A stretch of DNA of 64,000 nt, from assembly GCA_964036665.1 (NCBI GenBank), contig OZ038533.1:3458001-3522000 (forward strand), in the 5' to 3' direction. Of the stretch, positions 162 through 43,639 are shown piece after piece. The first letter of the stretch is position 1. Every line of letters starts with the position of its first letter. The translations under genes and the position numbers were made by a program. A model generated the notes under the pieces. That model had not been told where the DNA came from and did no database searches. It worked only from the letters and a program-made list of their open reading frames with translations. The stretch comes from Gordius sp. MW1 (Eukaryota > Nematomorpha > Gordioida > Gordea > Gordiidae).

Positions 162-941
162 TTAATATTTTATATGAAAATCGTAAATAAAAATACCAAA
201 TTTCATGGTTTTTGGCTGATTTGAGGCTTTGGCGTTAACTTTTTGCCCGAAAACTTGGACATTTTTATTGCTACACACGTTGTGCAAGGTAAAATAAATA
301 TTTAACCCTTTTTTCTGTGGCCTTTTTCTGTGAGATTCCGCTGGGTCATCAAGATCCATCCTGAGTCTGTCTCTATATATCGATTCAAACGACATTTTTT
401 TAGGGCGGGCATAGGTTAAATGGGAAATTTTGGCTCGGTAATTTTTGGTAGTTTCGCTAGCTTGCGTGCTAGTAGTAAGATCGCTGCCAGTACTGAGCAG
501 TGTAGAGGAGCTCATAGATTCAATTTTAAAGGAGGGCATTATAGGGGAGGCAGTTGATTTTGGTGTAGATGAGTTGGTAATACTGCTTGAAAAATTAAAG
601 ATTTTTGTCTCAACCTTATGAAAAATCGGTTCGGTCACATTGAGGTTAGTGGTAGGATAACTTGAATTGCTTGGATTTTGCGTGAGATTACTTTCTTGCT
701 TGCTATCCAAATTTTTTGCCTGTTCGATTGAATCGTAAAATTCGAAGGAATTTAACAAAGATTCATAGTAATAATCGTAATTTAAGCTATCGTTGTGAGA
801 AGTGGTATTTTCGGGTGTTAAGTTTGAGGGATAATCATAATTAGAGCTGTTAGAGGACCATAGTGGGTTAGAGATAAAATTCTTGAGCGTGTGGGTTTTT
901 GAGCTTGAATTTGAGACCGCGGAAAACGTTTGATCTACACC
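162..941 (-). CDS. Ser/Thr/Asn-rich exon of an unidentified gene (partial)
   Basis: The frame is open for about 260 codons in very AT-rich DNA, far longer than chance here. It can begin at an AG acceptor near 941 (a second AG lies at 935/936) and runs to a TAA at 162. A GT near 305, after a basic stretch (HRKRPQKKG), could instead be a donor. The protein is low-complexity, rich in Ser, Thr and Asn, with many N-X-S/T sequons (NSS, NVT, NFS) in the first two thirds, then a short charged segment (RDRLRMDLDDPAES). No signal peptide, membrane segment or known domain is visible. The sequons suggest an extracellular or lumenal region, which is inference. I do not recognise the gene; upstream exons would lie at higher coordinates. 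Confidence 0.5.
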   Translation of the reverse strand, partial: GVDQTFSAVSNSSSKTHTLKNFISNPLWSSNSSNYDYPSNLTPENTTSHNDSLNYDYYYESLLNSFEFYDSIEQAKNLDSKQESNLTQNPSNSSYPTTNLNVTEPIFHKVETKIFNFSSSITNSSTPKSTASPIMPSFKIESMSSSTLLSTGSDLTTSTQASETTKNYRAKISHLTYARPKKMSFESIYRDRLRMDLDDPAESHRKRPQKKGLNIYFTLHNVCSNKNVQVFGQKVNAKASNQPKTMKFGIFIYDFHIKY

Positions 942-3029
942 CTTAGTGTTATAAATATAGGAATTTTATTACTATATGATTAAAGGTAAGAATTAAAAGT
1001 CCATATTATTATTATTTATGATTACCTTTTTTATATTAAAAATTAAGGGATTTATTAACTCCTTCATATCTTGGCTCCTTGTGTATATTCTTACTACAAG
1101 GCCCGACGTTTTAATTCATAACAAAAAATGTACTAATTTACCTTTACATTAATGCAATATTGAAACTGATAAAAATTTGATATAATCTAGATATTCTAAT
1201 AATTAGCAGAACAAATTGATATAATTTGATTGTAATAGAGCCTAAACCTTATAAACAAACGCAGGTACCAATCAAAAAATCAAAAAGTAAAACTATTTTT
1301 AATTAAACAAACATTTTAGACTGGCGCATTAAAAGGCTTCACTACGAGTCTTTAACTAAACATAAAAGCCACAACTTTAAATGTCCTTTATTCAAGAACA
1401 CACAGAGAACAGTTTATTACGTAATTTCTAGTTCTTAACAAATATCTTAATAACCATAATTTGTCTTGCTTGTGTTTGCTTAACCAAGCAGAGACCATAA
1501 AAAGTCTGAGAAATTTATCGCGTTTCTAGAGTGGCTTTCAATCCCCTTTATAATATTGTACAATCTAACTGTAATGTAATTTTGTTGCTTAGTTTGCTTT
1601 ACTTTCCTTTAACAGGTTGAGATATTGCATATTATTTACATAGAAAAATGAAACTTCTTTCAAATGTTAACTATTCTTTGGCTTAATTTGCAAAATTTTA
1701 TTTTAAATATAAAGCTCAATTTTGACTAATATATTTACATTTTTATATTTACTCTGGTAAATTCGAATTAGTTTTAAAAATAGAATACATTAAGCCATGG
1801 GCGTAGCCAAGATGGGGAGCTGCCCCCCAATTTAAAACCAAAAAATTATTTAAATTTTAATATGATTATGGCTAAAATTTCGAAAAATAATTATTTGCCC
1901 CCCTCCCCTCCCTAAATCGTTATTGCCCCCCATCTAATTCCAATCCTAGTTACGCCCTTGCCTTAGGCTTAAGTGAGGCTTAACGTGTGGAAAACCCGAT
2001 TGTTAATAATAAAATGTCTCACGAAAGAGCTGACAAATTATACCTGCTGCAGGTGAATGAGATTTTGATTTAAAGGCGCAGATTGTGCTCTAAATGACGC
2101 GCGTTTACGGACAATTAAGGGATTATGTAACATATTTTATTCCTAAACATCCTCCTTATTAACCAAAGATATGATATATTAATAATCAATGTGATACAGT
2201 GTCCCCCCCTCTTATAAATTAGTAACTATGTAGGTATTATTTACTTAGGTGCACTGGTCAAACTTAAAGGTGGCTGCAAGTCTAGTTAATATAACACGTT
2301 AGAATCTCGGCTGCCATGTGCAAACATAGGAGGAATATTGACATATAATATTTTACAAATGAAAATACCTAAATTTTCACTAAAGCTAGTGTATTTGAAT
2401 ATAATTGGGCTCGACAAATAATTGCTTCGTAGTATTTCGAGGGGGGTCAATGAGGTTGTAATAAAATAAATTTTAAAACTCAAAGTTAAAATGTACAATA
2501 TACTTATGTAAAAAAATAGTTGTCTTCTCTGTACCGGTGTAATATGGGAAAATCGTAAAATTTTTATGGGCCTTTTATTTTATGACCTCTTCTAGGCGGG
2601 GCAGTGTGGACCCATTAGGGCAACATTTAAAGGTGTAGTCGGAGAAATTTAATTAAATAATCATCAAAGAACACACAATTTTAAAGGTTAATATATCCAA
2701 ATTGTCGCCTACCTTTATATCAAAAAAAATTAAATAGCTCCTATGTGACAAAAATTTTATTGCTTTATTTCATGTCTTTAATGCGGTTTAAACGTTCTTA
2801 ACCAAGTCTAATCATAAAATTATTTTTATAATATACCGAATTTAAACGTATTTTTTAACATGTAAATAAAATTTTAGGAGCACTTACGTTCGAAATTGTT
2901 GCGTTGTTATTGCCGATTAGAATCATGATGGATAGGAATAATATACTAAAATGATAAAGATAAATATTAATTAAAATGAAAAATCTTTTTTTGACAAAAA
3001 TAATTATTATTACAAATAAAGTGTAATTT
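942..3029. other. Intergenic or intronic AT-rich DNA
   Basis: Apart from one MITE at 1796-1960 I see no convincing gene. The short open frame at 2286-2498 on the minus strand has no coding character. The stretch may be an intron if the exons at about 3 kb and 0.2-0.9 kb belong to one gene. Confidence 0.4.
1796..1960. mobile_element. hAT-type MITE, GGGCGTAGCC family
   Basis: Begins CATGGGCGTAGCCA and ends TTACGCCCTTG, an imperfect terminal inverted repeat. The interior is the family pattern: a G-rich left arm, an AT core with 'AAATTTTAATATGATTATGGC', and a C-rich right arm with two 'TCGTTATTGCCCCCC'-like runs. The flanks CATTAAGC and CCTTAGGC agree at 6 of 8 bases, an eroded 8-bp target duplication. 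Confidence 0.75.
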
Positions 3030-13144: not shown

Positions 13145-13313
13145 GATGGGCGTAGTCAAGGTATAGAGGGCAGGGAGGGGCGCCTGCCTCCTCTAAATCC
13201 AAGAATGTGTTAAAATTTATTAAAATTTTTGCTTAAATTTCAAAAAATAATCATTTTGCCCCTCCCTAAATCATTATTACCTCCCTCTAATCCCAATGCT
13301 GGCTACGCCCCTT
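13145..13313. mobile_element. hAT-type MITE, GGGCGTAGCC family
   Basis: Left end GATGGGCGTAGTCAAGG and right end TGCTGGCTACGCCCCTT, with the standard interior. Target duplication not recognisable. Confidence 0.7.
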
Positions 13314-13729
13314 TGTTTTTCATTGATTGAGTATATATAATAAAGCAATAAAAAAAAAGTCGCCTAGCTTAATTAAAAGACTTACATATTTTAAAACTAA
13401 TAAATATGATTAATAAATTAATATTTTATTAATGAACTCAAATTAAATAATTGGTTAAGGGCCAAACAAGCCTGGATTTTTTCCATACGGGCCCGAATGG
13501 GCCAAAATTTTACTCTTTAGGGGGAGGGGGGAGGCCCTTGGCCCGCCTCCAGCTACGCCACTGATTACACCAAGCCCTAAAAGCATCATTTTAATCATAG
13601 TCTTAGCCTTAAATTAACATGATTTAAAGGGAGAAATAATGTGCTTTTTATTGATATTTTATTAATCATATTTCTATTAAAGTTGTGATTTAAATCATAT
13701 TCGTTGCAAAACAGTTCCCAAAAAAAATA

Positions 13730-16700
13730 TTATTTAGCGTAATAATTGAATTGCGTTGAATTAATTTCTGCTTCAGATTGCGGGTTGTGATAATAATTTT
13801 CTTCGCCACTCAAATTGCTCCATTCATCTTCAAGGTCCGATGCCACTGGTAATATTTCTTCTTCTTCATTTAACATGCCATAAGTTTCTTTAACACGACC
13901 CTTTCCAAAAGGGTCCCCCCTTTTGATTTCGTTCATCAACAAACCCTTTTAAAATTATATTACATTAGCAAATCTTTTTTAAATTATTTATTATCTTTAT
14001 TTAGTTTAAAGGGCTTAGTATTGTCGTAATTCATAAAGATCAAATTAAGCTCAACAACTTTAGATGATATTGAAATCCGTATGAAATTAAAACCTTTTAT
14101 TTGCAAAAGATTTAAATTTATATTTAATTAAGTGTTGAATTACTGAATCAAATGATTCGGGTGGGTTTTTAAGGTACCAAAGTGCTGGAGCATATGCTAA
14201 ATTAAGTATAGCTGTCCCCCAAACCAACCTTGAAGTTATATAAAAAATTCATATATTTATTATTTATTTGCAATATTTTTTATTTATAATTATAACATTG
14301 TATACCATCTAAATCCTATAGATTTTACCACGCTACCTCCGATAGATGGCCCTAATTATACAAAAAAGATGTAAATATTATTTTATAAAATGTTATTATA
14401 AAAAAATAATTGTATTTTTTTGCTAAAATAGGGATAAAATGTACCTAAACCATAGGCTAAACATACGGCTACTTGACTGATAGAATATACAGCTCCGTAC
14501 ATCCCAGAATATCTCACATCCACAACGTACCCTAAATAGGGAATTAAAGAGGAATCCACTATTCCTGAAAAAAAAAATTTTATTCAGCAAAGTGTGATTT
14601 AAAAATTTGTTGTTATTGCATAAAATTATAAAAGTCGTTATATGGCAAAATTATTATAAAGTTTATTCTGGACAAATTCGCTAGGATAGGGGGTTTTAGA
14701 AAAATTAGGGAAAAATGGGTATAATAAATGTTATAAATAATTGGCCCGAATAATAAAATAATTTAAATTTTTAAATTTTTGTGAACTTCTGATCGTGTTT
14801 TGAACAGACTCTAGAAAATTTGAAACAATATCTTTTAAAATCTTAATTATTAACTAATTTTTAAGAAAAATTGTATTAAAAGGCCATCAACTTATATTAT
14901 GGTAATAAGTCCCAAAAATCAAGTTAAATATTTCAGATGACTTAAGTAAGTTTGTGGGGATTAAGCAAATTTTACCAATTCCAAGTCCGATCCCAAAATG
15001 TGGCAATACTAGATGGGCTGGATGATTCGCGAACGGAATCTAAGATACATAAAATTTTGTTGTACTTAGTTTTTAAAGAGTTTTTCGAATTGAATATAAT
15101 AAGTTTCTTGAAATATTTCCAAAAAATTTCATATAAAATTATGAAAAATATATTTTTAATAATACAAAATCATAGAATGACACAAATGGGCTATAATAAG
15201 TGTAACAATTTTTACCAAAATTAAGCAAATAGCTATCATGACCATTGAAACGATTGCACATTTCCACCTTTATTTAAATTAATGTAAAGAGTATAATGTA
15301 ATTATCACCAAGGAAAATAAAATTAATAAAAAGTAACATGCTTTAATAACTAAAAGATCGACCTGCCGTAATTGAGGGCAAATTTTCCAAATAGATTGGT
15401 TCCAATAAGGTAGCCAAAACTGTCGGGCAGGAAAACAGTACCTATAAAGTGCTTATATGAGTAAATTTTAAGTTTTTTCCAAATATTTTTTAATCTTCTT
15501 ATTATTTTTAATTTTTAAAAATTTTCATTTATTGAATTAACCTATTTATTTAATTTACCCAATTTCCATTGGGCCGGATGAATTTTGTTCATAAGCCAAA
15601 TCGGTAGAGATGGTTCTAAGACGGCAATTGAAGTGGTTGAAAATAATATGGAACCTTTATTAATATTAAAACAGAATTACACATTTTTTTATTTCATAAT
15701 TTTATATTGTGCGAAAACAATTTTTAATAATATTTAACCAGTGGCAATGAGAATGTATTTGTCTTTAATGAGCTTTACCATTTCGCCCGCCACAGGTCTC
15801 ATCTAAAATCATATCATGGCATATAGTTAGAAAAGAACTTAAATTTAATATTTTTTAGAATATTTTTAATTTTGTAAACAATATTTATTATGGATTTATA
15901 TTACGGAATATTACTAATTAATTTATTTTAACATCCTCTATTATTCCTGAAAATAAATTCATAAAAAATTCAATTTGATAGTTAAAATTATCATTACAAT
16001 AGAAATTTTTTCTTCAGGTTGTCACTGGTTTCAAATGAAGCAGTCTAAATTTCAAATTTTTTATTCATTTTTATTGTATCTATCAGTTCTCAAAGTTTTT
16101 ATTTTTTTGATGCTCAGACTTTAAAAGTTTTAAAAAATAGTATTATTTGTAAATATAGTATTATCGCCCTATTTCTGCATTTACTTTACACTTATTGTGA
16201 ATCTAATGTTTTATTATGTATTAATTAAAAATGCTAAAATTTTAAAAAAGCATAGTCATTTAATAAATAAATTTTTAACTACTGTGTATATGAACCCGGC
16301 AAGCTTGATAGTTTAAACCTTAATTACTATTCAGGATTATGGATTATGCAAAATTGGATTTAAAAAACCTAAAATCATATTTTCTTTCCACATAAAATAT
16401 CATCACTATGTTTTTACATTAGCATGGGATACAGCAACGGGTTTGATGACGTACAACGTAAAACCTATGAAAGCGGATTAGGATTTTTAAAATTGTTGTA
16501 AACTTTATAAAAAAAAATATTTTATAAGTTTCAATAAGGTGGTTTTTACTTCCAATAATAACGACCAGCAAAGATATAATCCAAAATGGTGCGCTATCTC
16601 CTATGAATTGATATAGCAGGCTTCCAAATGGGTATCCAACTAAATTATTTGATCACTTTTAAGTTTAAATACATAAACATTTTTTGCCCAGATTTGCATT

Positions 16701-19700
16701 TATTGTAATTATGTTTTCATAAATATTTATCATTTAGTTTTTTATTTAATTTAGTTAGACGCCTTATTCGACAAAAAATTTTTTTGAATAATTAAAATGA
16801 GCGGCAAAACTATAAGCTCATTAAAATATAGGTTTTCAAAAAATTCGTAATATATTAATTGTTATAAATTTTGAAAAAGAAATGTAAAATTAATCAAGTA
16901 CCAAAAACACCGAAAGCCATGCCACTCATAGCTCGCCCCATGTAAACGCTGCGATCTTTATCGTTAGGAAATCGTTCCGCTATCAATGCTAATCCTATAG
17001 GATATATTCATAAATTAAAATTTCCATTAAAAAATTTAAAAACTAATTTCTCTCATTAATATCACCAAATATTTATAGGTTTGTTGTTAAATGGGATTTC
17101 AAAATTGTTTTCATTTACAAGAGTATAAATAACTTAACTTGTTGGTATAATCAGTCCAAACTCAGTTTGCAAATTAGCAAAATAAATAATTAAAATGAAA
17201 TTATGTTAAGCAATACTAATAAGTGCATCGCTCTCTACCTAAATATAGATATTTTTGATTTTTACTCAGGTTTACAGGTTCATTTAAAAGTTATAAAATA
17301 TATATAGGCTCATACAAGCTAAGGACGCAAAAAACAACAATGAAAAAAGGGGTAGAAAATAGCTTAGTTTTGACATATTTTACCTTTAAAATACAAATTT
17401 ATCAATTATATTATTTTTAAATGTGCCATAAGCGGCCTGTGAAACCAGCAGATATACATATTTCATATTACTAAAAAAAATTATTAGAATAATAAGTTTT
17501 TATTAAAATTGTATTAAATTAAAGGTCTTGATGCCACATATCACATATTAGAATGCACAGGATCGAATATAACTACTAAGTGCTCGTATAATAAAAGACA
17601 TCGAGTCGGGTCGGGTTCGGGTTGAAAATTATTGCTTTCAGGTGGGGTCGGGTGGGGTTGGATTTAAGTCGAGTCAAAGGTTATGATCTTACATTGCAAA
17701 ATACACGGGAAATATCTTTTAAATTAATGCTATTATATATAAAAATTTTAATTATAATAACGAAATTTATAATTGAAGATCGATCATTCAGTAACTTAAT
17801 TTCTTTTTGTTTATCTAAATAAAATTGTTTTAATTTAGACGTAAATTTAATGACTCGTGAAAGGTAAAATATATCAACAACTTAATATTTTAGATTTGCA
17901 TTTAAATATTGTGAAGTGGCAGTTCAATATTAATTTAAACCACATAAAATATATATTCATAAACCATAATAAAATTTAGTTTAAATTTATTAAATGGTTC
18001 ATTTGCAAAACTATGTATTTCAAATTAATTGCGACCCGATTTGTAGATGCTATCATATTTATATACATCACAATGATAAATCATTCAAATAAATCTAAGA
18101 ATCAAATTCTGTGCATCATTCAGTTTCATAAATCACACTTTAATTTGTTGGTTTAACTTTCCATACCGCAATTTTTCTTACTCTCGCGTCGGATACCAAA
18201 ATTTAAAACGCTTTCAGGGGGGATTCGGCTAAAAAAATTTAAACGCTTTTGGGTGGGATCGTGTCGGGTTCGGGTTGAAAGTTATAAAATGCTTTCGGGG
18301 CGGGTCGGGTTCGAGTTGAAAATTTTGAAATGCATGCGGATCGGGTATGGGTTAAAAATTTCAAAAAAATTTTGGGTAAGGTGGGGTTCGGATTGATAAT
18401 GACTTTGAAGTTCTCTTTTTTTTATAAATAGTAGCTTATTTTTAATAATTGTTACCTGAAATATTGAGGCAAGCTGATGAAATTCCGTGAATAGATCTAG
18501 CCATGAGCAAAGCTCCATAACTTTTCCCAAACGCAAACACTAAAGAAGATGATGAAAAATCTTCTATTAATCCTCGTTCAATGATTTAACAAATCATTTT
18601 GTTTATGGCATTAATGAGCAATGCCAAATTAACTTATTTCTAAAAAATTAAATTTGTACAAATAGCTCTAATAAATTAACACGACGTTTCATAATTGTTA
18701 TTGTTATATTAATATATATAACGATAAAAGTGATTTTAAAGATGTTAAGAAATAAAATATTCCCTTACTGATGGATGATAGGAATAAAACCACAAATCCA
18801 AAGCACAGAGGAATACCGTATCCAACTCTTAATGAAATGTACGATCACATATAAGTTATTTTTCAACGTATATTTAGATTGATTCTTATTCAAACTAAAA
18901 GCTGATCATTTCAAAAGCCAAGCAAATCTAATTGAGAACCCTAACCCTAACCCTTGCCCTAACAACCCTGACCCCACAAGACATCAAGCATTTTATATTA
19001 GCTTATGAAATGAACAGCTTTTAGTTTGAACAGAACCGTTTAGATTTACTAAATACCATATTTATAATGCTATTTTGAAGCAAAATCCTGTCATTGTTTT
19101 TAGTTTTAATATATTAACATTGATTAGTTTAACCCTTAATGTGTCCTACATTATGAAATTTTTTGAATCCTTATATAATTGGGAATTTCAGTTTTAAATT
19201 AGCTTATCTTAATTTACCATGTAATAAGGTTATTTCCTAAAATAAGGAACTCCGATCCAGGTAAAACCTATTTTTACCAACCCCAAATTTTTTAAATTTC
19301 TAGAATCTTCAAATAATGTGCCAAAATTTATATTATTTTAATATAGAAATAAAATTTTCAAATATTTTAACCATAATATCTCAATAAATAAATTGGATTT
19401 AACAGGAAAATCCTGGCCCTCTCCGACTCCTCCTTGCTATGCTCATACCATTTTTACACTAGTCAAAATAAAACATAATCACAAATTTAAAATAAAAAAT
19501 CCGTATTTTTGCAAATACTTGGAAATTATGGGACCTAAAAGGGGGTTTACGAATAGTTGAACTATAGCTTTAGAAGCGAATAGCATGCCCACTCTTTTAT
19601 TTTCGTTGATTATATCTTCTGGCAATGGCGCTTCTTCCAGAATAGAAGCTGTCGCTTTGGTCGTAGTTTCTGCGCTAATTATTGTTGTCAAATTTATGGC

Positions 19701-20247
19701 TTGTGTTTCATTCAGGACCACAGGGTAATCTATATAGTATTCCTCATAATTCTCTGAATCCTGCTCCTGCGTTCCTCGTTTAGCCCATCTAACGTACGTT
19801 TTAGATCTTATATTTTTGGATGGATTTTTCTTGAAATACACTGTTTCAACGTTTTTACTATGATTTAACGAATGCTGTTGATGATGGGTGTAATAATCTA
19901 AATTTCCATGCTCGAATTTATATAGAATGGGCGGGATGATCGGAACTATTTTAAGTAATAGATTATGATATAAATGAGTTAATAATAGTTTAAAATAGTT
20001 TATAATATATATACATTTTTTTAAAGTAGCGTAAAAAGGTATAAAAATTAGTTATTTTTATGGGAAATTATAACATACCTACGACGGTTAGTAGCATGTT
20101 GTCTAACATCATCATAAGGAATACCAAAAACACCACCAATTTTACATTGGATGCCTCTAGTCTATTGTCCTCCAACTCACCCGAGACCAAATGAAATTTC
20201 TTCAATACCGAATAGGTTGTTTCATAGAACGCACCTACCCTATCCAT
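13730..20247 (-). CDS. Vesicular monoamine transporter-like protein (SLC18 family), 16 coding exons
   Basis: Proton-coupled antiporter that loads amines into secretory or synaptic vesicles (family knowledge). Exons, all GT-AG and in phase: 20247-20079, 19945-19519, 18827-18769, 18539-18456, 16994-16902, 16639-16550, 16464-16418, 15802-15739, 15654-15559, 15441-15363, 15267-15216, 15039-14976, 14564-14445, 14351-14306, 14228-14144, 13945-13730; 1,791 nt, 596 aa. Landmarks: TM1 LDNMLLTVVVPIIP (Asp49); glycosylatable lumenal loop (NET135, NLT141); LFASKAIVQLFVNP (Lys182); MARSIHG (Arg233); VLEPSLPIW (Glu358); GYLIGTNLFG (Tyr387); GIVDSSLIP (Asp445); GPSIGGSVVKSIGF. These favour VMAT over VAChT. 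The cytosolic tail has a dileucine-type DSGLLMNE and a tyrosine-rich end. Start is the first in-frame ATG. Oddities: the TM11 Asp (human VMAT2 Asp426) is Gln472, and Asn305 is Thr351. Confidence 0.93.
17600..18400. repeat. GGGTCGGGTTCGGGTTGAAA minisatellite blocks in the transporter's long fourth intron
   Basis: Two blocks (about 17600-17665 and 18180-18400) of imperfect units built on GGGTCGGGTTCGGGTTGAAA plus 'AAATGCTTTCGGG', period about 55 bp. They lie between the exons ending at 18456 and starting at 16994. The blocks may be the subterminal repeats of one non-autonomous element of about 800 bp. A reversed relative lies at 32470-32640. Confidence 0.55.
18935..18975. repeat. Short interstitial telomere-like run (CCCTAA)
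   Basis: AACCCTAACCCTAACCC followed by degenerate TTGCCCTAACAACCCTGACC, in the intron between 19518 and 18828. It matches the metazoan TTAGGG telomere unit but holds only about three to four units. Confidence 0.6.
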
Positions 20248-35287: not shown

Positions 35288-38200
35288 TCATAGCATATTA
35301 GGATGTTTACTCCTTATGTGATTCTTTATGTTGAAACGCCAAGATGTACGGAATTCGCAGTAGGGGCAACCGTGAGGCTTCTCACCCCTATGGGCGGCTA
35401 GGTGATCAAGCATGCGATTTTTATCGTAGGCCTCGAAATTGCAACCCGGTAGTGTGCATCTATGCGTGCGTTGACGCTTTGCATTGGGTCCGGCAGCAGC
35501 TCCCAAGCTAAGGAGATATTGCTGATGGGCTGGATCGAGAGGATCATAAGGTCCTAAACCACCTGGCAGTATGGTTCCTTCTAAATTGCTTATATGCTCC
35601 GATGCCAAACGCGGTTCTGCAAAATCCAAATGTGGTGAGCCGTTGTTGGCATTTCCGGCCGTGTTTTGCTTAGATCCGGCATGGGACATTACTAAAAGCA
35701 ATGACTCGGGGGTAGGGAGATAACTAGCGGCTGCGGAACAATATAGCCCATTGCCACCAGTTCTATGATGTGTGACAGAAATACTCGCATTTTTTGATGC
35801 CTTATTAGAACTAACTGGTGATCTAACATATATTTTTTCATCTCGAATCGCCATGTGGACATCTTCTACTCGATCATTGAGGTTTTGGTAACTTTCTAAT
35901 TGATTCTGTACCAAACTTAAAGCGGAGCTCGTAACTTTATAATCATTGTCCTTGATTTGAAAAGCCGATTTTATGGAATTCGGCGGACTCGTGCCTTTGT
36001 AACATGTATTTTCGTAACGGGTAGCATCTAGATAATATCAAATAAATTTATTTATTTAAATCCAATTGTTATTTGAAAACATTTTAGATATAAACTACAA
36101 AAAAACCTTCAAGCGCGTGTGCTTTTGAAGAGGATTCAGAGGTATTGTCGGATGTTAACGAACCTTTCCGAGCCATATAACGCAAATGATCTTTAATATA
36201 ATTATTTTTGACGTGTACACCTGATCCTGTAGATGAGGTTATGGATCTATGACGTTCCTTGTGAGTTTGATGTTTTAGACTTCCACTTTCTTGTGATTCT
36301 GTCGAATTTTTTCGACTGTTTTTCTGCATCCCGATCATTTCCTGTTCCTTACCATAGAACATTCGTGTGTAGGTCTGTAAGCTTTCGGGATTGTTATAAA
36401 AGGCTGCTGCGGCGGCTGCAATATTAAAATGATAAGGGGGAGGTAGGAGTCCCTGTAAAGGTGCCGTCGGTAACCAATTGTGATGAAGCATATCCTGAGC
36501 GGCCGGCAAGCTTTCTTGAGACTTTACCCGCTTCATTATATTAGAAACCTCCACACTACAATGATCAGGCGAATATTTAGCCTCATTCTCAACCGATTTC
36601 CCAGTGATAACGTTATTATTGAAGTCCGGTCGAGGTGGCATTATACCATGAACATTTTGATAGTGTGTCATAAGGTCGGGAAAAGTTTTAAAATAGGTGG
36701 AACACAGGGTACACAACAATGGATATGAAGGTGTTTCAGTTGTAGGAGTCATAAAAGGCAAGTGGTAATGATTCATCCACATCTGCTCTGGCCCAACATC
36801 AGGGTTACCAATGACTTGATGGTTTGGAGTAAACGGAGGTAGGTAATATGGGAAAATATTCCAAGGAGAATTAATTTGTGAATCTTTTGAAACGGTAACT
36901 AGATTTGGAGCATATATATTTGAAGATCCAAACCTTTTTAAGTAATCGCGATAATAAGCTGCGGAAGCATTGGAATGTTCCAATCGAAATTCGTCGCTGA
37001 CTTTTTGATCCATGGGTACGCTATCATGATTTAAGACATTCAAATCTGTATCCTTTGTGATGATATCACCTGATTTCCCGTTGAGAGAAAGATCTTCATA
37101 AACGGTGCGTTTTAGACAGTCATTCATTTCCACCAAATATCCATAAGCCCTTTTAAGATTTTCGTTTGTCTTAAAATCAACGTTCCTGAATGCCTCATGT
37201 ACATGTAAAGGATTTAAATTTGCTGATGATTGACTTTCATTTAAATTTGATTTGTTAGTATTTAGATCCTTTGAACCTCGTAACAAAGTGGCCAAAGAAC
37301 CTTGTTCTTTCTTAATGTCGTCGTGGAACTTCGTTATATAGTTTCCACGAGATAATTTAGGCTTGTATACAGTATGTCTATTAGCACTGACAGGGGGATA
37401 AGTTGGATGTCTAAATCGGTTGATTATTTGTGGGTAAATGGATTTTTTTTCTAAGTTCTTTCTAAATGGGGCCAAAGTTCTATCTCGACATTCTGATTCC
37501 ATTCGTTCTAATCTTACTACTTTTTCCTCTCGACCAACAAACTTAAGCGGAGCAGATTTTCGTTTGTTCATTTTATTGACACCAGATATAGTGTTCCTGC
37601 AAATTTGATTTTCACTATAGAGCACGTGTCTTTTTGTATCGTGTTTATCATTCAAAGGCTTACCTAATTTATAAATATTTCACCAAAAATTAATAGCCTC
37701 TTTGAACATTCATATGATAAATAAAAATTATATAAATAGATAAATGCTTTTATTCTATAATCAACTCAAAAAAAATAAAGTGTTAAATGTATTGCGAAAG
37801 CAAAAACAAAAAAGGTTAAAGTCAAATTCTTATATCGATGATGAAACTTACACGCATAATCTATATAAAGACTAAACCTCGATTACACCTCTGTGTTAAG
37901 TAACATGAATTGACACTTGTTTATAGCATAGCCATTAAGAGTATCGGTTGTTATCATAACACTACTTGTAAGCTATATCTATCCATTTATATACCTACTA
38001 TATATATCAGGATAGAGATCTATAATTTAAAGAACTAATAGCTAAACACTCGATTGCGCAAAGTAGAGCTGATCAAATTATGTGAGGCAAGGAGTGTAAG
38101 AGATAAGACAGGCCACCACTATTAACTATGTGTAGTACCAACGTAAAACCAACTATTAAAGTAAGCTGCCTTATTGGAAGCTCAGATTATAACCTTATAT

Positions 38201-41039
38201 ATAGACTCTTTCCACATAGATATATAAACTTTAATGGGATTAAGTATTGTTCATCATTTAACAAAAGCCACCACACGTTATCATATACCGTTATCATTCC
38301 AATTGATGCATTACAGGATAAAGATATCATCAATGTACAGGTCTTAACTATATGACCTATATATGTAAAAATTCAATACTTAAGATTAACAATAAAGAGT
38401 ATTAATATAAAATGAATCCTACCATTTATAAAATGAGGGCCATTTTCTTCAATTTTATTTGCGTAGATTGATTTACATTTCAACGATCCTTTCATCAACG
38501 TGGGGGCAGAGACATGCATTCGTTTTGTATGCTGTTTAAGATTTTCGTACCAAGTGGTTTTGTATGGACATGACTTGCACGAGTGGTTTTTTAAGCCGTT
38601 GTGATGATCTAAATGATCGGCCCACCTTTTTTTGTTACGTGTTTTAAAAGAACACCCTATTTTATTGCGCAATGGACAAGGGTAAAGTCTGGAACCCCCA
38701 TGATTTTCACTGGACAGTTTCAGAAAATTATCAATGGAAGCTGTCTGCTCACTCAAATTTTGCATCTTAAGGGGCTCCTCAAAGACCTCATTGAAAACTT
38801 CAGTTGCGATAGAGGAGGAAGGTGGTGAAGGAGAGGGGCTATTCGCATTTTTTAAATATTTTTGCGACATTAGTCCCAACGATTTTTTTGGGAAACCTTG
38901 TGATCTGTCACCATTAATTCGTTTGGCAGGAACGTTATAAAGGTAAAATATGGGACAATAAAAATGGACTTTAAACTCAACGCACAATGACAAGTTGTGA
39001 GTTTGCGGGTCATCATTTTCTGATGGCATAGGCTGTTGAAACTCAATCAATCTAATATTAAAAATACAATGATATAATCACAAATTTTATAATATAAAAG
39101 TTTACTCGTTTTCTGATGCGGATAATTTAGTCTTTAAGCTTAAGCTATGTCCCGACTTAATGATTGTTGATCGACGTCGGAAGGGGCTAACGATCTTTCG
39201 TTTGAATATTTTATGAATAAAACATTTTCGGAAAAATAAATAAGTTGAAGCCCTCATATTGTCACCAAATTTTGACTTATAAGGTAACCTGACGCTATTC
39301 AAATCCTGTGTGTTCTGTATGTTGTCCATCGTTGAAATGTCATTCATCAGCAAATAAGATGTATCAGTAGGTCTTTTTTGATCTAAATGAATTACCTGAT
39401 TGGACATTATCTTCGTTAGCAAGGATGCGATATCAATGATGCCACTTGATGAGGCATGTTGACTTTCAAAATCATCGGAGTTTTTTTGATGGAATATGAT
39501 TCCTAATTTATCATGTAACAGTTTAAGGTGGGTTTTATTTTCATGAAACCATTCGTCTAATTCTCTTTTATTTCGATTTAAGAGTGATATTTGTTCAAAT
39601 TTAGGTAATAATTCAGTTGAGGGTTGAAAAAATCGATTGGGCTGGTGATTTTTGATTTTCTTTTTAATCAGAGGACTTGAATGACGTTTTAAAAGAGTGT
39701 TCAGCAAATTATGCTCAACATTTTTACGATCGATGGTATCAAATGGATGAGGAAAGTTGGAAAAGGCTCTACCTTTAGTTAAATCTATATTATTTTCATC
39801 ACCATTAATTAAATTGTCATAGCTCGATCTAAAAAAATGTTGTTCGTATATGTGCGTCGCAATCTCGGGTTTAGATTCGGCAGATGTATCACATAGGAAA
39901 CAATTGTATGTGCTCCACAACGATGCATGGGCCGTGTTATAATGCGAGATCATGGAACTTTTGGAGATCGTAGTAAAGGTGCATTCGAAGCATTGCAGTT
40001 CATTATTATTGTCGTTTTTAGGCTCGGATTCACCACCGGTAGACCATTTTTGAGATGAGACCGAAAAAGTTTTTGGCAAAGTGTTGAGAGAGGTTGCCAA
40101 GCTATGTTGCGAAGGGCGTAATGATGTGCGCGAATTGATGGGATTTGAATTGATAGGATAAATAGGAGCAGATCCCCTTCTGGGGCCTGCGTAAGTGCAT
40201 GTGACAACTAAGTTATTGTGCGGTGGTTTAAGATCCTTGCTATGTGCCGTGGTATAATGTTTGGATATCTCTAGTCTATCAAGTGTCGAAAATGAACATT
40301 CAAAACATTTCATAGCCATACCAGTTTTAACGTATGGGAAGGACGTCAATTGCTTAAGGTTATTATCGCAAACCCCATAGTACTGGTTGAGAGTAGATGG
40401 TCTAGCCGCCAAGCCTCGGGAAGAAACTTCGAGATTAAATTTGCCAATATTAGAGCTAGACTCTTTGCAAGTGATCGATGAACTCGTAGATACTGGATTG
40501 TTAATTTCGGATGATGCGTTGACCGAATTATTCCAAGATATGATGGGAGTTGATGTTAAATTTAAGCGTAAATCATTGCACTCATCATTATTGACAGGGT
40601 GCAACCATTTTGAAGAGCATTTAGATAAGTTACACTCTTTTAGAGTACCGGGTAGCAGTGGCGCTTCAGAGGTAACGATTTGCGAAGTGGTAATAGAGGT
40701 GGTAAGTGAATCGAGCGAACGCATTTCGTTAATCATATCAGTGGCACTGCCATAATCCAAGGCAGGACTGGAGTAAAGTGAACGGGTAGAATACTTTGGC
40801 ATCTTTCTTTTTTCAGCAACGCTCTCAGACTTTTCAACGCTAGCAACGTTTTTATAAGTAGGGCTTTTGGGGTACAACAGGTCACAAGGTTGATCGAGGT
40901 TGGAGGAGTTGGAATGATTTTTGGAGGATAAATTGTATACGCTACTACATTTAGATGATATGAAAGAGGTGATCGCTTTATTTTCACGCCGGCCGCAGTT
41001 TGTGCGGGGATCGTTAATGACGGGATCCATTGTAATCAT
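35288..41039 (-). CDS. Large C2H2 zinc-finger protein, four exons, probable transcription factor
   Basis: Exons 41039-39106, 39051-38423, 37663-36107 and 36027-35288 join in phase through introns of 54, 759 and 79 bp; 4,860 nt, 1,619 aa. Exon 1 has three fingers: CFECSFS...HYTTAH (about 246-266), CFECTFT...HYNTAH (350-371) and CFLCDTS (380-401). Exon 2 has a paired module (about 770-824): GCSFKTRN...DHLDHH then CKSCPYKTTW...HTKRMH. Exon 3 has CTLCSTYFKTF...HYQNVH (about 1172-1193). A second paired module ends the protein: GCNFEAYD...DHLAAH then CPYCEFRTSW...HIRSKH, six residues before the stop. Long Ser/Asn-rich linkers suggest disorder. Start is the ATG of MITMDPVIND. Nuclear DNA binding is inferred from the fingers. 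I cannot assign it to a named family; it does not match hunchback or Ikaros spacing. Confidence 0.9.
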
Positions 41040-43639
41040 AGTGACGGCGGGCCAGGCTAGGGCTCTATGTTGTTAAATTTTGCGTCGTTCGCTGTACAAA
41101 TGATAATAGAACAAAGTGTAAATAAAATAAATAACCCTAGCACTGTTTACTGTTCTATCGGATAGTGTTATAAATAATATGACTTATTTTGTTAACTGTG
41201 CAAACCCAAAAAAATTGTAATGTGTACATTAAACTATCTTTCCCTACTGAATCTCCATTACAGTTTTCAAACGTCGCTCGGGTTTATTTATTTAAAATTT
41301 TATTTGCTTAAATGAAAAGCACAAAATTTTGCCACCAAGTGTAGATGTGTTTTTAGTAAAAATAGTGTAAGTGAAAAATTTGGAGTAGGCTTGAATGATG
41401 TAAGCTTATGATGAGAGTTGAGTTTAATTGTTTATCGCACAGCTAAAACATAACGGGAAAAGCCATCATCACACCTGATCTCATTAATAATTGATATTGA
41501 TCAGAGGCAACGGAACTACTCAATTCATAAGAGAAGTAAGAAGGGGGAGAGTAGTGTTACTTGAATGCTTTTACAATATTTTAGATCTGCCTCTAACTGC
41601 GTGGACACCTTATACCCCTCCTCTCCCACTAAAAAATATATAAAAATTAATAAATTATTAAAAGAATTAATGGAACCGTTTAAACCGTCATACATGCATT
41701 GAGGTGTTTAAGTATGCACAAATGTTTAAAGGGAGTCGTTTATAGTTAGCGCAGTTAGGTATTGCAAATTAAAAATGAAATCATTAATATCTAAATTCTG
41801 GATAAGTAGGCAAAAGTGATTTGCATTATTGCGCTTAAAAAGAATTTATTATAAAAGGGCTTTAATTTGCTTAAGAGGATAGATAGTATTATAATGAGCC
41901 TTTGCTAAAACTTTAACACTTTAACAGCCTATAAATGTATTTGTTGGATTCATCAATAATTAAATACGATGCAAAGTGTAGAGATATACATACATAAATA
42001 GTAAATGTTTAAGGTGTGTAAAAAAGTTGGCTCCTTTATACTGAATAATGGATCTCCTAAAACGTTCGTTTAAATAACTTTAATATAGTAGACATCGTTT
42101 GATACACTTACTACGAATGCGTATATTAATGAGGGAGGAGAATAAATATAAATTACAGATAAATAGTTAGTAGATAATACAAAGTATTTGCATAAAAGTT
42201 TAAACAAAAATAATGTTCTTGTGTAAAATTAATTCTCATATTGATTAAATCATATGAGAAAAACAAAGTTTATATGTTATTCTTTGTGTCATAACTTGAG
42301 GTAAAAAATTATATTAATTGCCCTGAATAAACTGTTTAAGTAGCAATTCTCTAATAATAATTATCCTAGGTTACTTAAGTATTGTCGTCTGTTAAAATTA
42401 AAACTTGTAAATATATAGTAGAACATAAATAATAATTGTATCAATTAATGCAGCTTTAGATTGTTGATTGTCATGATGCTTTAACATATGAGCAACATTT
42501 GTAATTGTTCAATTTATTAAATTTAATAGCATATAAATTAAATAACAATTATTATATACAAAAGATAATTCTTATAAATAAATATCATAAAATTTAATAC
42601 TAAGTTTTTTATTAATTAATATTTAAATATATTGGGTTCTTTTTATTAGAAATAAACAACTTAACATGCAAAGTTATGCCATTATTAATTATTTGTTTCT
42701 TTATAGTGTATTATTAAAGGCCAATCAAAATTAAATATTATAGCGTCAACATTAATTTTATATACAAAACGATCGACAATCTATATTCAAACATGTGTAC
42801 CCAATTAATGAGAATGATAAAAACTGGCTTCTAACTAAGGCACGTTCCAAAAGAGAAATCATGCAAACTAAAATTGAGGAAAGGTATTAAATTTGCAAGA
42901 TATAATATAAAAAGTTACAAAGTATGATAACTTTCAATTAAAATTGTTCAATTAGCACAACAGTTGGATCGCGATAATATTTAACTGTTTTATTAGACTC
43001 AAGTTTGAGGTTGTGACTATGACGACGTTGTTTTCGCATAAACATCAAATTTTCAATGTCAGGGCCACGGTGCTATGAAGTCAGAGTTGTATCTAATGTC
43101 AAACTAAAGGTCCTTATATTTTTGGATCAAATATAATCAAAGGAAGTGGATGTGATATACCATGATAGGTTATAAATTTTATTTTCGAGAACTGTGAAAG
43201 ACACCTTACAAAGTACATTGACAATAACGATGCCCCGTTCTAAATCAAACTTTTGAGTTGTTATTGCTTTAGCCACCACGGTCTTCAATAGTCGCAACGA
43301 ATATTTCCCCTTTAATGATGGACGAGACATTTACAGTACAAAAAATGAGGAGTGATAGTTTTTTTAAACTGAAGCAATGAATAATGATTTTCAAGAATAC
43401 GCACACATAAAAAATTTGAATGTCACCAAGGTCACCACTGCAAGCTTTTTTTATTTGTAACGCACTCTTCGCTTTGGCCACAAAAATTTTATTTGCGCAC
43501 CAATGTTTCTATGCAACGGCGCGCATAAAGATTTAAACATATGTCCTAAAGCTTGGCTCTTCCACTCACATACATCATTGTTCATCAATTAAAAAGCATT
43601 AAAATCAGTGGCGATAATAGTTTCCTATTCTCAGATATA

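Follow-up and report, generated by a model that had tools for sequence, protein, structure and literature searches.

A diverged VMAT paralogue with glutamine at the TM11 aspartate site

The 64-kb stretch of DNA analysed here (the window) carries on its minus strand a gene paralogous to, and diverged from, a canonical VMAT that is kept elsewhere in the same genome. Where human VMAT2 has the TM11 aspartate Asp426, the encoded protein has Gln472, and where VMAT2 has Asn305 it has Thr351; both substitutions belong to its wider divergence. Its sequence suggests to us, with about even confidence, that it works as a VMAT-type vesicular antiporter of amines and protons in which ionizable residues have been rearranged, perhaps serving another amine. 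As a naturally occurring VMAT paralogue with three of four acids retained and a new one in the pocket, it provides a ready test of the disputed proton carriers, and its comparison with the canonical sister, here called VMAT-A, would reveal whether the TM11 acid is dispensable. The gene may point to one more vesicular amine transporter in animals other than vertebrates, and its product may load vesicles differently or with a different amine.

Gene model, family placement and a canonical VMAT in the same genome

The SLC18A-family gene (20247..13730, minus strand) was rebuilt manually and checked by script. It has 16 exons and 15 introns, all GT-AG, and encodes 596 residues, with consistent phases and a single stop at the end of the coding sequence; the exon limits of this predicted model were set by similarity and splice signals. 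Its features are listed below, with human VMAT2 equivalents in brackets.

20079..20247, minus: exon 1, N-terminus and the greater part of TM1; D49 (D33), N50 (N34)
19519..19945, minus: exon 2, end of TM1, long lumenal loop and start of TM2; sequons N84, N135 and N141; K182 (K138), Q186 (Q142), N190 (N146)
18769..18827, minus: exon 3, TM3 region
18456..18539, minus: exon 4, TM4; R233 kept; H236 (Q192), A241 (S197), N244 (S200)
16902..16994, minus: exon 5, start of TM5; R261 kept (R217); R267 (I223)
16550..16639, minus: exon 6; VMAT-A lacks the intron that separates it from exon 5
16418..16464, minus: exon 7; the intron 3' of it is missing in VMAT-A
15739..15802, minus: exon 8
15559..15654, minus: exon 9, TM7; T351 (N305), E358 (E312), W364 (W318), H370 (C324)
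15363..15441, minus: exon 10, TM8; D383 (A337, pocket), S384 (S338), Y387 (Y341)
15422..15424, minus: D383 codon, GAC, an acid gained by the substrate pocket at the A337 site (a pocket position according to PMC11405867)
15216..15267, minus: exon 11
14976..15039, minus: exon 12; H434 (N388)
14445..14564, minus: exon 13, TM10-TM11; D445 (D399), D457 (D411), Y460 (H414), Y464 (Y418), Y468 (Y422), Q472 (D426), Y479 (Y433)
14473..14475, minus: Q472 codon, CAA, at the D426 site
14306..14351, minus: exon 14
14144..14228, minus: exon 15, TM12
13730..13945, minus: exon 16, acidic tail at the C-terminus that contains YGML and EEEEIL, which we take to be sorting-like motifs, and the stop; the preceding intron is missing in VMAT-A

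Compared with solved structures, the predicted protein matched human VMAT2 with an E-value of 1.1e-122, VMAT1 with 1.7e-111, VAChT with 1.5e-76 and SLC18B1 with 2.8e-6; the match to NorA had an E-value of 7.7e-10 and that to Pfam MFS_1 2.5e-38. Similarity to VMAT2 and VAChT far above that to NorA and SLC18B1 places the predicted protein in the SLC18A vesicular amine transporters. The first-pass annotation had called it an SLC18 protein nearer to VMAT than to VAChT, which is borne out by the E-values, by diagnostic columns and by a tree. At 131 VMAT-specific columns it agrees with VMAT 61 times, with VAChT 22 times and with neither 48 times. In an unrooted tree built without SLC18B1, two VAChTs are separated from the window protein, VMAT-A and three vertebrate VMATs by a split with support of 100/100; SLC18B1 lies too far off to serve as a root, and with it in the tree the forks remain open. 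The predicted gene thus groups in the VMAT (SLC18A1/2) subgroup, apart from the VAChTs, on a long end branch (1.66 to 2.69 changes per column) that is compatible with relaxed constraint.

We rejected identity with VAChT, given 34.5% identity to the human protein, the position on the VMAT side of the tree and the presence of Tyr387 and Gln472, whereas in VAChT the Y341 site is His and the TM11 Asp is retained. The genome's own VAChT is a separate locus (L001) in which the D426 and N305 sites are kept. Likeness to VAChT is seen at the S200 site, which is not Ser (Asn in the window protein, Asp in the human and own VAChT), and in the Ala at S197.

A search of the assembly with human VMAT2 found VMAT-A at C7:897036-900991, on the same contig as the window gene and 2.57 Mb away. 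VMAT-A has 487 residues, is 56% identical to human VMAT2 and keeps the canonical network residues compared, among them Asp426, Asn305, Gln192, Ser200, Asn388 and His414, except for an Ala at S197. Its introns, 12 out of 12, match introns of the window gene in column and phase, whereas the two proteins are only 39% identical and the window gene has three extra introns and a long acidic tail. With this canonical VMAT and an Asp-keeping VAChT in the same assembly, the window gene is a diverged paralogue. The first-pass annotation had offered this as one alternative, and the second SLC18 copy with Asp and Asn at the two respective sites, the shared introns and the wider divergence support it. On orthology of the window gene to VMAT-A or to vertebrate VMAT, which bears on the age of the duplication, the comparisons did not single out one placement. 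In an approximately unbiased (AU) test, the pairing of the window protein with VMAT-A had p 0.52, that of the vertebrate VMATs with VMAT-A p 0.354 and that of the vertebrate VMATs with the window protein p 0.177; the window protein agrees with the vertebrates and not with VMAT-A at 29 columns, and with VMAT-A and not with the vertebrates at 14.

Drosophila portabella (prt) offers a parallel in situation, as it too exists alongside a canonical VMAT. Its product is described as an SLC18-like vesicular transporter that has diverged and whose substrate is not known.

The TM11 glutamine and the other substitutions

The rebuilt model upholds both replacements named in the first-pass annotation, Asp426 by Gln472 and Asn305 by Thr351. 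That the TM11 codon reflects a sequence or gene-model error is very improbable. The exon at 14564-14445 aligns with TM10-TM11 of VMAT2 without gaps and lies in frame between AG and GT sites, the residues flanking Q472 match VMAT2, and several further codons of the same network differ too. Moreover, a one-base misread is excluded, because GAT or GAC becomes CAA only through two changes within one codon. An alternative Asp-bearing exon was also rejected, as a tblastn comparison of the protein with the 64-kb window covered residue 472 by a single hit. The aspartate is kept in all six other SLC18A sequences compared (human VMAT1, VMAT2 and VAChT, Xenopus VMAT2, and the genome's own VMAT-A and VAChT). 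The titles and text passages covered by literature searches of a less specific aim do not mention a naturally occurring VMAT in which Asp426 is replaced by Gln.

Identity to human VMAT2, human VMAT1 and Xenopus VMAT2 is 42-45%. The eight residues listed as kept in the first-pass annotation (Asp49, Lys182, Arg233, Glu358, Tyr387, Asp445, Tyr468 and Tyr479) are all present in the rebuilt model; they include the equivalents of Asp33, Tyr341 and Tyr433, the amine poles Glu312 and Asp399, and the VMAT partners K138 and R189 (K182 and R233). The cytosolic gate triad R217-D411-Y418 is likewise kept as R261, D457 and Y464, as is W318. Among the intramembrane acids D33, E312, D399 and D426, only the last is replaced, and of the six charged residues in the published polar networks five remain (D33, K138, R189, E312 and D399), D426 being lost.

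Further differences from VMAT2 are Ala337 to Asp383 in the pocket, Gln192 to His236, Ser200 to Asn244, Asn388 to His434 and His414 to Tyr460, and other pocket or gate changes are F429 to V475, L228 to M272 and the N305 to T351 replacement itself. The new pocket acid at the A337 site and the new histidines at Q192 and N388 go beyond the changes listed in the first-pass annotation. We discarded His414 to Tyr as specific evidence, as the genome's own VAChT likewise has Tyr; the site is presumably linked to energy coupling through His419 of rat VMAT1. Cysteine is absent at both sites of C117-C324, a disulfide in VMAT2 according to PMC10959523; this absence and the Ala at S197 were also set aside, both being common to VMAT-A. 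N305T by itself is weak evidence, since human VMAT2 N305A and N305D retain 17% and 70% of serotonin transport (PMC12721464); the contrary case is N305Q, which is reported to be significantly reduced (PMC11405867).

The substitutions are spread evenly. Four canonical VMATs share 200 invariant columns, of which 72 are changed in the window protein, compared with 5 of 15 network positions (P of 5 or more = 0.69); network positions thus change at the same rate, and the statistics give no indication that rewiring was targeted. Furthermore, 48 of 144 family-invariant columns are broken, compared with 23 in VMAT-A and 21 in the own VAChT. This evenness and breadth, together with the loss of an aspartate essential to human VMAT2 (PMC11405867; PMC12721464), argue for a relaxed paralogue heading for loss, or for amine exchange or leak without proton coupling. 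We regard this as unlikely, if not markedly so: all 16 exons are open with canonical splice sites, the protein retains its two amine-binding acids along with the gate triad, Trp318 and a number of pocket residues, and the tail carries the sorting-like motifs.

Possible proton coupling

Which residues carry protons in VMAT2 is disputed. PMC11405867 favours Asp399 and Asp426, whereas PMC12721464 (2025) favours protonation of D33 and E312 as drivers of the cytosol-facing switch. Asp426 is a candidate proton site in contact with Gln142 and Asn146; uptake by human D426N and D426A is abolished or markedly reduced, and D426N loses reserpine binding (PMC11405867; PMC12721464). Ala337 forms part of the pocket wall close to where the dopamine ring sits (PMC11405867).

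If the window protein is a working antiporter, amine would bind at the two acidic poles that persist, D445 with Y387 and E358 with Y479, and closure would rely on the kept gate triad. Proton coupling might then rest on D49, E358 and D445 and, instead of the TM11 aspartate, on new ionizable groups, namely D383 in TM8, H236 in TM4 and possibly H434. Q472 could still form an uncharged hydrogen bond with the retained N190/Q186 pair, in the manner of a permanently protonated Asp, and the extra acid beside the pocket's aromatic-ring site suggests that substrate preference has shifted. The surroundings of D383, H236 and Q472 in this scheme are read from the alignment. A neutral residue at the D426 site may also simply cripple transport, given that human D426N and D426A are defective; the pocket or gate replacements at F429, L228 and N305, the unexceptional rate of change at network positions and the long end branch likewise speak against this reading.

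Another account is a functional paralogue for ordinary monoamines that can do without the TM11 acid, the equivalents of D33, E312 and D399 being enough, and whose other changes are neutral drift. It is consistent with the retention of these acids along with Y341, Y433, K138, R189 and the gate triad, with the preference for D33 and E312 in PMC12721464, and with the Ser of human SLC18B1 at the aligned D426 site, a less certain column at about 24% identity. We nevertheless consider it unlikely, in view of the aspartate in every other SLC18A sequence compared and of the defective human mutants (PMC11405867; PMC12721464). A more specific form of the rearranged antiporter, in which the coupling carboxylate would have moved from TM11 (D426) to the TM8 pocket wall (D383 at A337), with a helper His in TM4 (H236 at Q192) and possibly another substrate class, for example a di-cationic amine, is doubtful.

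Further matches

The 20 matches listed for human VMAT2 in the assembly comprise VAChT, the window gene, VMAT-A and two weak others, on C5 (E 4.9e-4, 24% identity) and C1 (E 0.09, 28%). Scans for relatives gave 17 and 282 pattern matches in two passes over viral contigs and 37 in one pass over genome contigs, none of them confirmed, and Rfam returned no match at gathering scores in the 64-kb window. Pfam searches of ten window open reading frames gave one zinc-finger match above the cut-off and more under it, as well as weak matches to TBX2-3_RD and Actin_micro under the cut-off.

Two VMAT genes in one genome

The SLC18-family gene of the window is a diverged VMAT paralogue, real and unusual; because a canonical VMAT (VMAT-A) lies elsewhere in the genome, on the same contig, the window gene is ruled out as the animal's sole VMAT. 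With human VMAT2 as query against the whole assembly (211.8 Mb, 12 contigs), in which the window occupies C7:3458001-3522000, three clear loci were recovered, namely the window gene, a VAChT on contig C1 and VMAT-A, which is 2.57 Mb from the window gene on C7 (OZ038533.1).

Further SLC18 genes of the assembly, with the stretches (L030, L001) that bear them
L030:3036-6991 = C7:897036-900991, minus strand: VMAT-A, canonical VMAT, 13 exons, 487 aa
L001:772-3126, around C1:8347877-8349058, plus strand: the animal's own VAChT, a single open frame of 784 codons

The VMAT-A model, built by eye from L030, contains 12 introns, all GT-AG. Each of the 12 has a counterpart in the window gene at an identical column and in the same phase, and the window gene has three introns more. 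In one alignment, VMAT-A is 55.6% identical to human VMAT2 and the window protein 42.5%. VMAT-A conserves D33, K138, Q142, N146, R189, Q192, S200, N305 and E312 (human VMAT2 numbering), and further Y341, N388, D399, H414, D426 and Y433. The first-pass annotation had suggested a diverged paralogue beside a canonical VMAT, and a genome search for a second SLC18 copy with the TM11 aspartate; VMAT-A, with both D426 and N305, is that copy, and the own VAChT, 58.3% identical to human VAChT, conserves both sites too. By eye, this VAChT carries a long stretch within its central loop; its His414 site is Tyr, where VMAT-A, both human VMATs and human VAChT have His. Weaker matches to human VMAT2 at L019 (C5:513434-513820; E 4.9e-4) and L027 (C1:27942450-27942704; E 0.09) are perhaps other MFS carriers.

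Rebuilt from raw sequence and checked by script, the window gene comprises 16 exons on the minus strand (20247..13730), with 15 of 15 introns GT...AG and in consistent phases, and its joined exons yield 596 residues and a single terminal stop. Every residue named in the first-pass annotation was found in place in this model, including Gln472 (codon CAA, two base changes from an Asp codon) and Thr351 (ACC). The alignment with human VMAT2 around Gln472 is gap-free, setting GIVDSSLIPYLGYVVDVRYSGMYGAVYSISQVAVC against 35 VMAT2 letters, and only one tblastn match covered residue 472 when the window protein was searched against the 64-kb window. The loop after TM1 is lumenal and about 105 residues long, with sequons at N84, N135 and N141. 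The tail of about 75 residues includes YGML and EEEEIL, which we take to resemble vesicle-sorting motifs, whereas the VMAT-A tail is short and has neither.

Placement within the SLC18 family

The window protein, whose Pfam match is MFS_1, had been described as nearer VMAT than VAChT, and several comparisons agree. In a search of solved structures, its E-values were 1.1e-122 for human VMAT2, 1.7e-111 for VMAT1, 1.5e-76 for VAChT and 2.8e-6 for SLC18B1. At the 131 columns that are uniform across three VMATs and differ in human VAChT, it has the VMAT residue in 61, the VAChT residue in 22 and neither in 48. A seven-protein SLC18A tree, left unrooted, separates it, VMAT-A and three vertebrate VMATs from two VAChTs with 100/100 support, and VMAT-A branches outside the vertebrate VMATs, which points to an animal other than a vertebrate. 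Adding human SLC18B1 leaves most forks open, so the root of the SLC18A tree is not fixed; VMAT and VAChT are described as having arisen by duplication in the bilaterian stem (PMC10244343). Holding the window protein with VMAT-A gave p 0.52 in an AU test and the two alternatives 0.354 and 0.177, none being rejected. Where the three vertebrate VMATs are uniform, the window protein sides with them and not with VMAT-A in 29 columns, and with VMAT-A and not with them in 14, though the window branch is long.

The transport core and its changes

In the structural account of PMC10959523, a first polar network of human VMAT2 comprises D33, N34, K138, Q142, R189, Q192, S196, S197, S200 and D426, the last likely bonded to S200; a second comprises E312 and N388, and a third N305, Y341 and D399. 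PMC11405867 describes D426 as bonding Q142 and N146 and proposes it as a proton site. Beyond Gln472 and Thr351, the window protein changes these networks at S200 (Asn244), Q192 (His236) and N388 (His434); S197 is Ala241, an alanine common to VMAT-A and VAChT. The VAChT aspartate aligned to S200 is, judged by the surrounding letters, the Asp193 that PMC11369146 ties to proton-coupled change.

Pocket and gate residues are altered at N305, L228 (Met), F429 (Val) and A337. The last, which touches the part of tetrabenazine near the dopamine-ring site (PMC11405867), is Asp383 in the window protein and Ala in human VMAT1, VMAT2 and VAChT, Xenopus VMAT2 and VMAT-A in our alignments; with D426 replaced by Gln, the core has thus lost one acid in TM11 and gained one in TM8. 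The cysteines of the VMAT2 disulfide, C117-C324 (PMC10959523), are absent at both sites, as they are in VMAT-A and VAChT.

The amine-holding acids at E312 and D399 are conserved with their tyrosines, as are D33, K138, R189, N34, F135, F334, S338, W318, V232, N146 and Q142 (N190 and Q186 of the window protein) and the R217-D411-Y418 gate. The conserved acids, gate and other pocket residues suggest, as the likeliest working inferred from sequence, that the protein moves an amine by alternating access. Q472 could still form a neutral bond with N190 and Q186, and the proton role of D426 would then pass to the acids that are left, or to D383 and H236. A rival reading is an ordinary VMAT that dispenses with the TM11 acid. 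D426N or D426A is reported to cause marked loss (PMC11405867), and neutralising D33, E312, D399 or D426 to cause loss of uptake, D426N also losing reserpine binding (PMC12721464); the latter source favours D33 and E312 as driving sites, and VAChT D425N is described as leaving vesamicol binding undisturbed (PMC11369146).

Divergence extends well beyond these sites. Human VMAT1, VMAT2 and VAChT and Xenopus VMAT2 have 144 invariant columns in common, of which 48 are broken in the window protein (49 of 145 in a six-sequence alignment), 23 in VMAT-A and 21 in the own VAChT; where VMAT-A and the own VAChT are also unchanged, the window protein breaks 26 of 106, including Q192H, N305T and D426Q. It differs at 72 of the 200 columns invariant among four canonical VMATs. 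Within those 200, 5 of 15 network positions taken from published structures are changed (192, 200, 305, 388 and 426), which is the overall rate, with no excess (P of 5 or more, 0.69), and this speaks against any targeting of the changes to the networks. Such an even spread lends more support than we would like to a further rival reading, a relaxed or uncoupled copy.

Other features of the window

Features with coding-like codon use, and shared words
35288-41072, minus strand: several long ORFs bearing C2H2-finger-like pairs
162-965, minus strand: 267-residue open frame rich in Ser, Asn and Thr
about 13280-13350, and the VMAT-A intron preceding exon 12 (L030): GGGCGTAGCC/CCTCTAATYCCAATGCTGG sites, by eye

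The frames at 35288-41072, which belonged to the training set of the codon-use analysis, are apparently zinc-finger regulator genes; in Pfam, one zf-H2C2_5 match lies barely above the cut-off and other zinc-finger matches lie below. For the 267-residue frame, a Pfam search at E 0.01 gave no match. Copies of GGGCGTAGCC and CCTCTAATYCCAATGCTGG, in one orientation or the other, turn up close to each of the two VMAT genes and, by eye, are parts of a dispersed element. Degenerate ACCCGACCCG-type stretches were also seen by eye in the intron between window-gene exons 4 and 5, at about 17560-18400.
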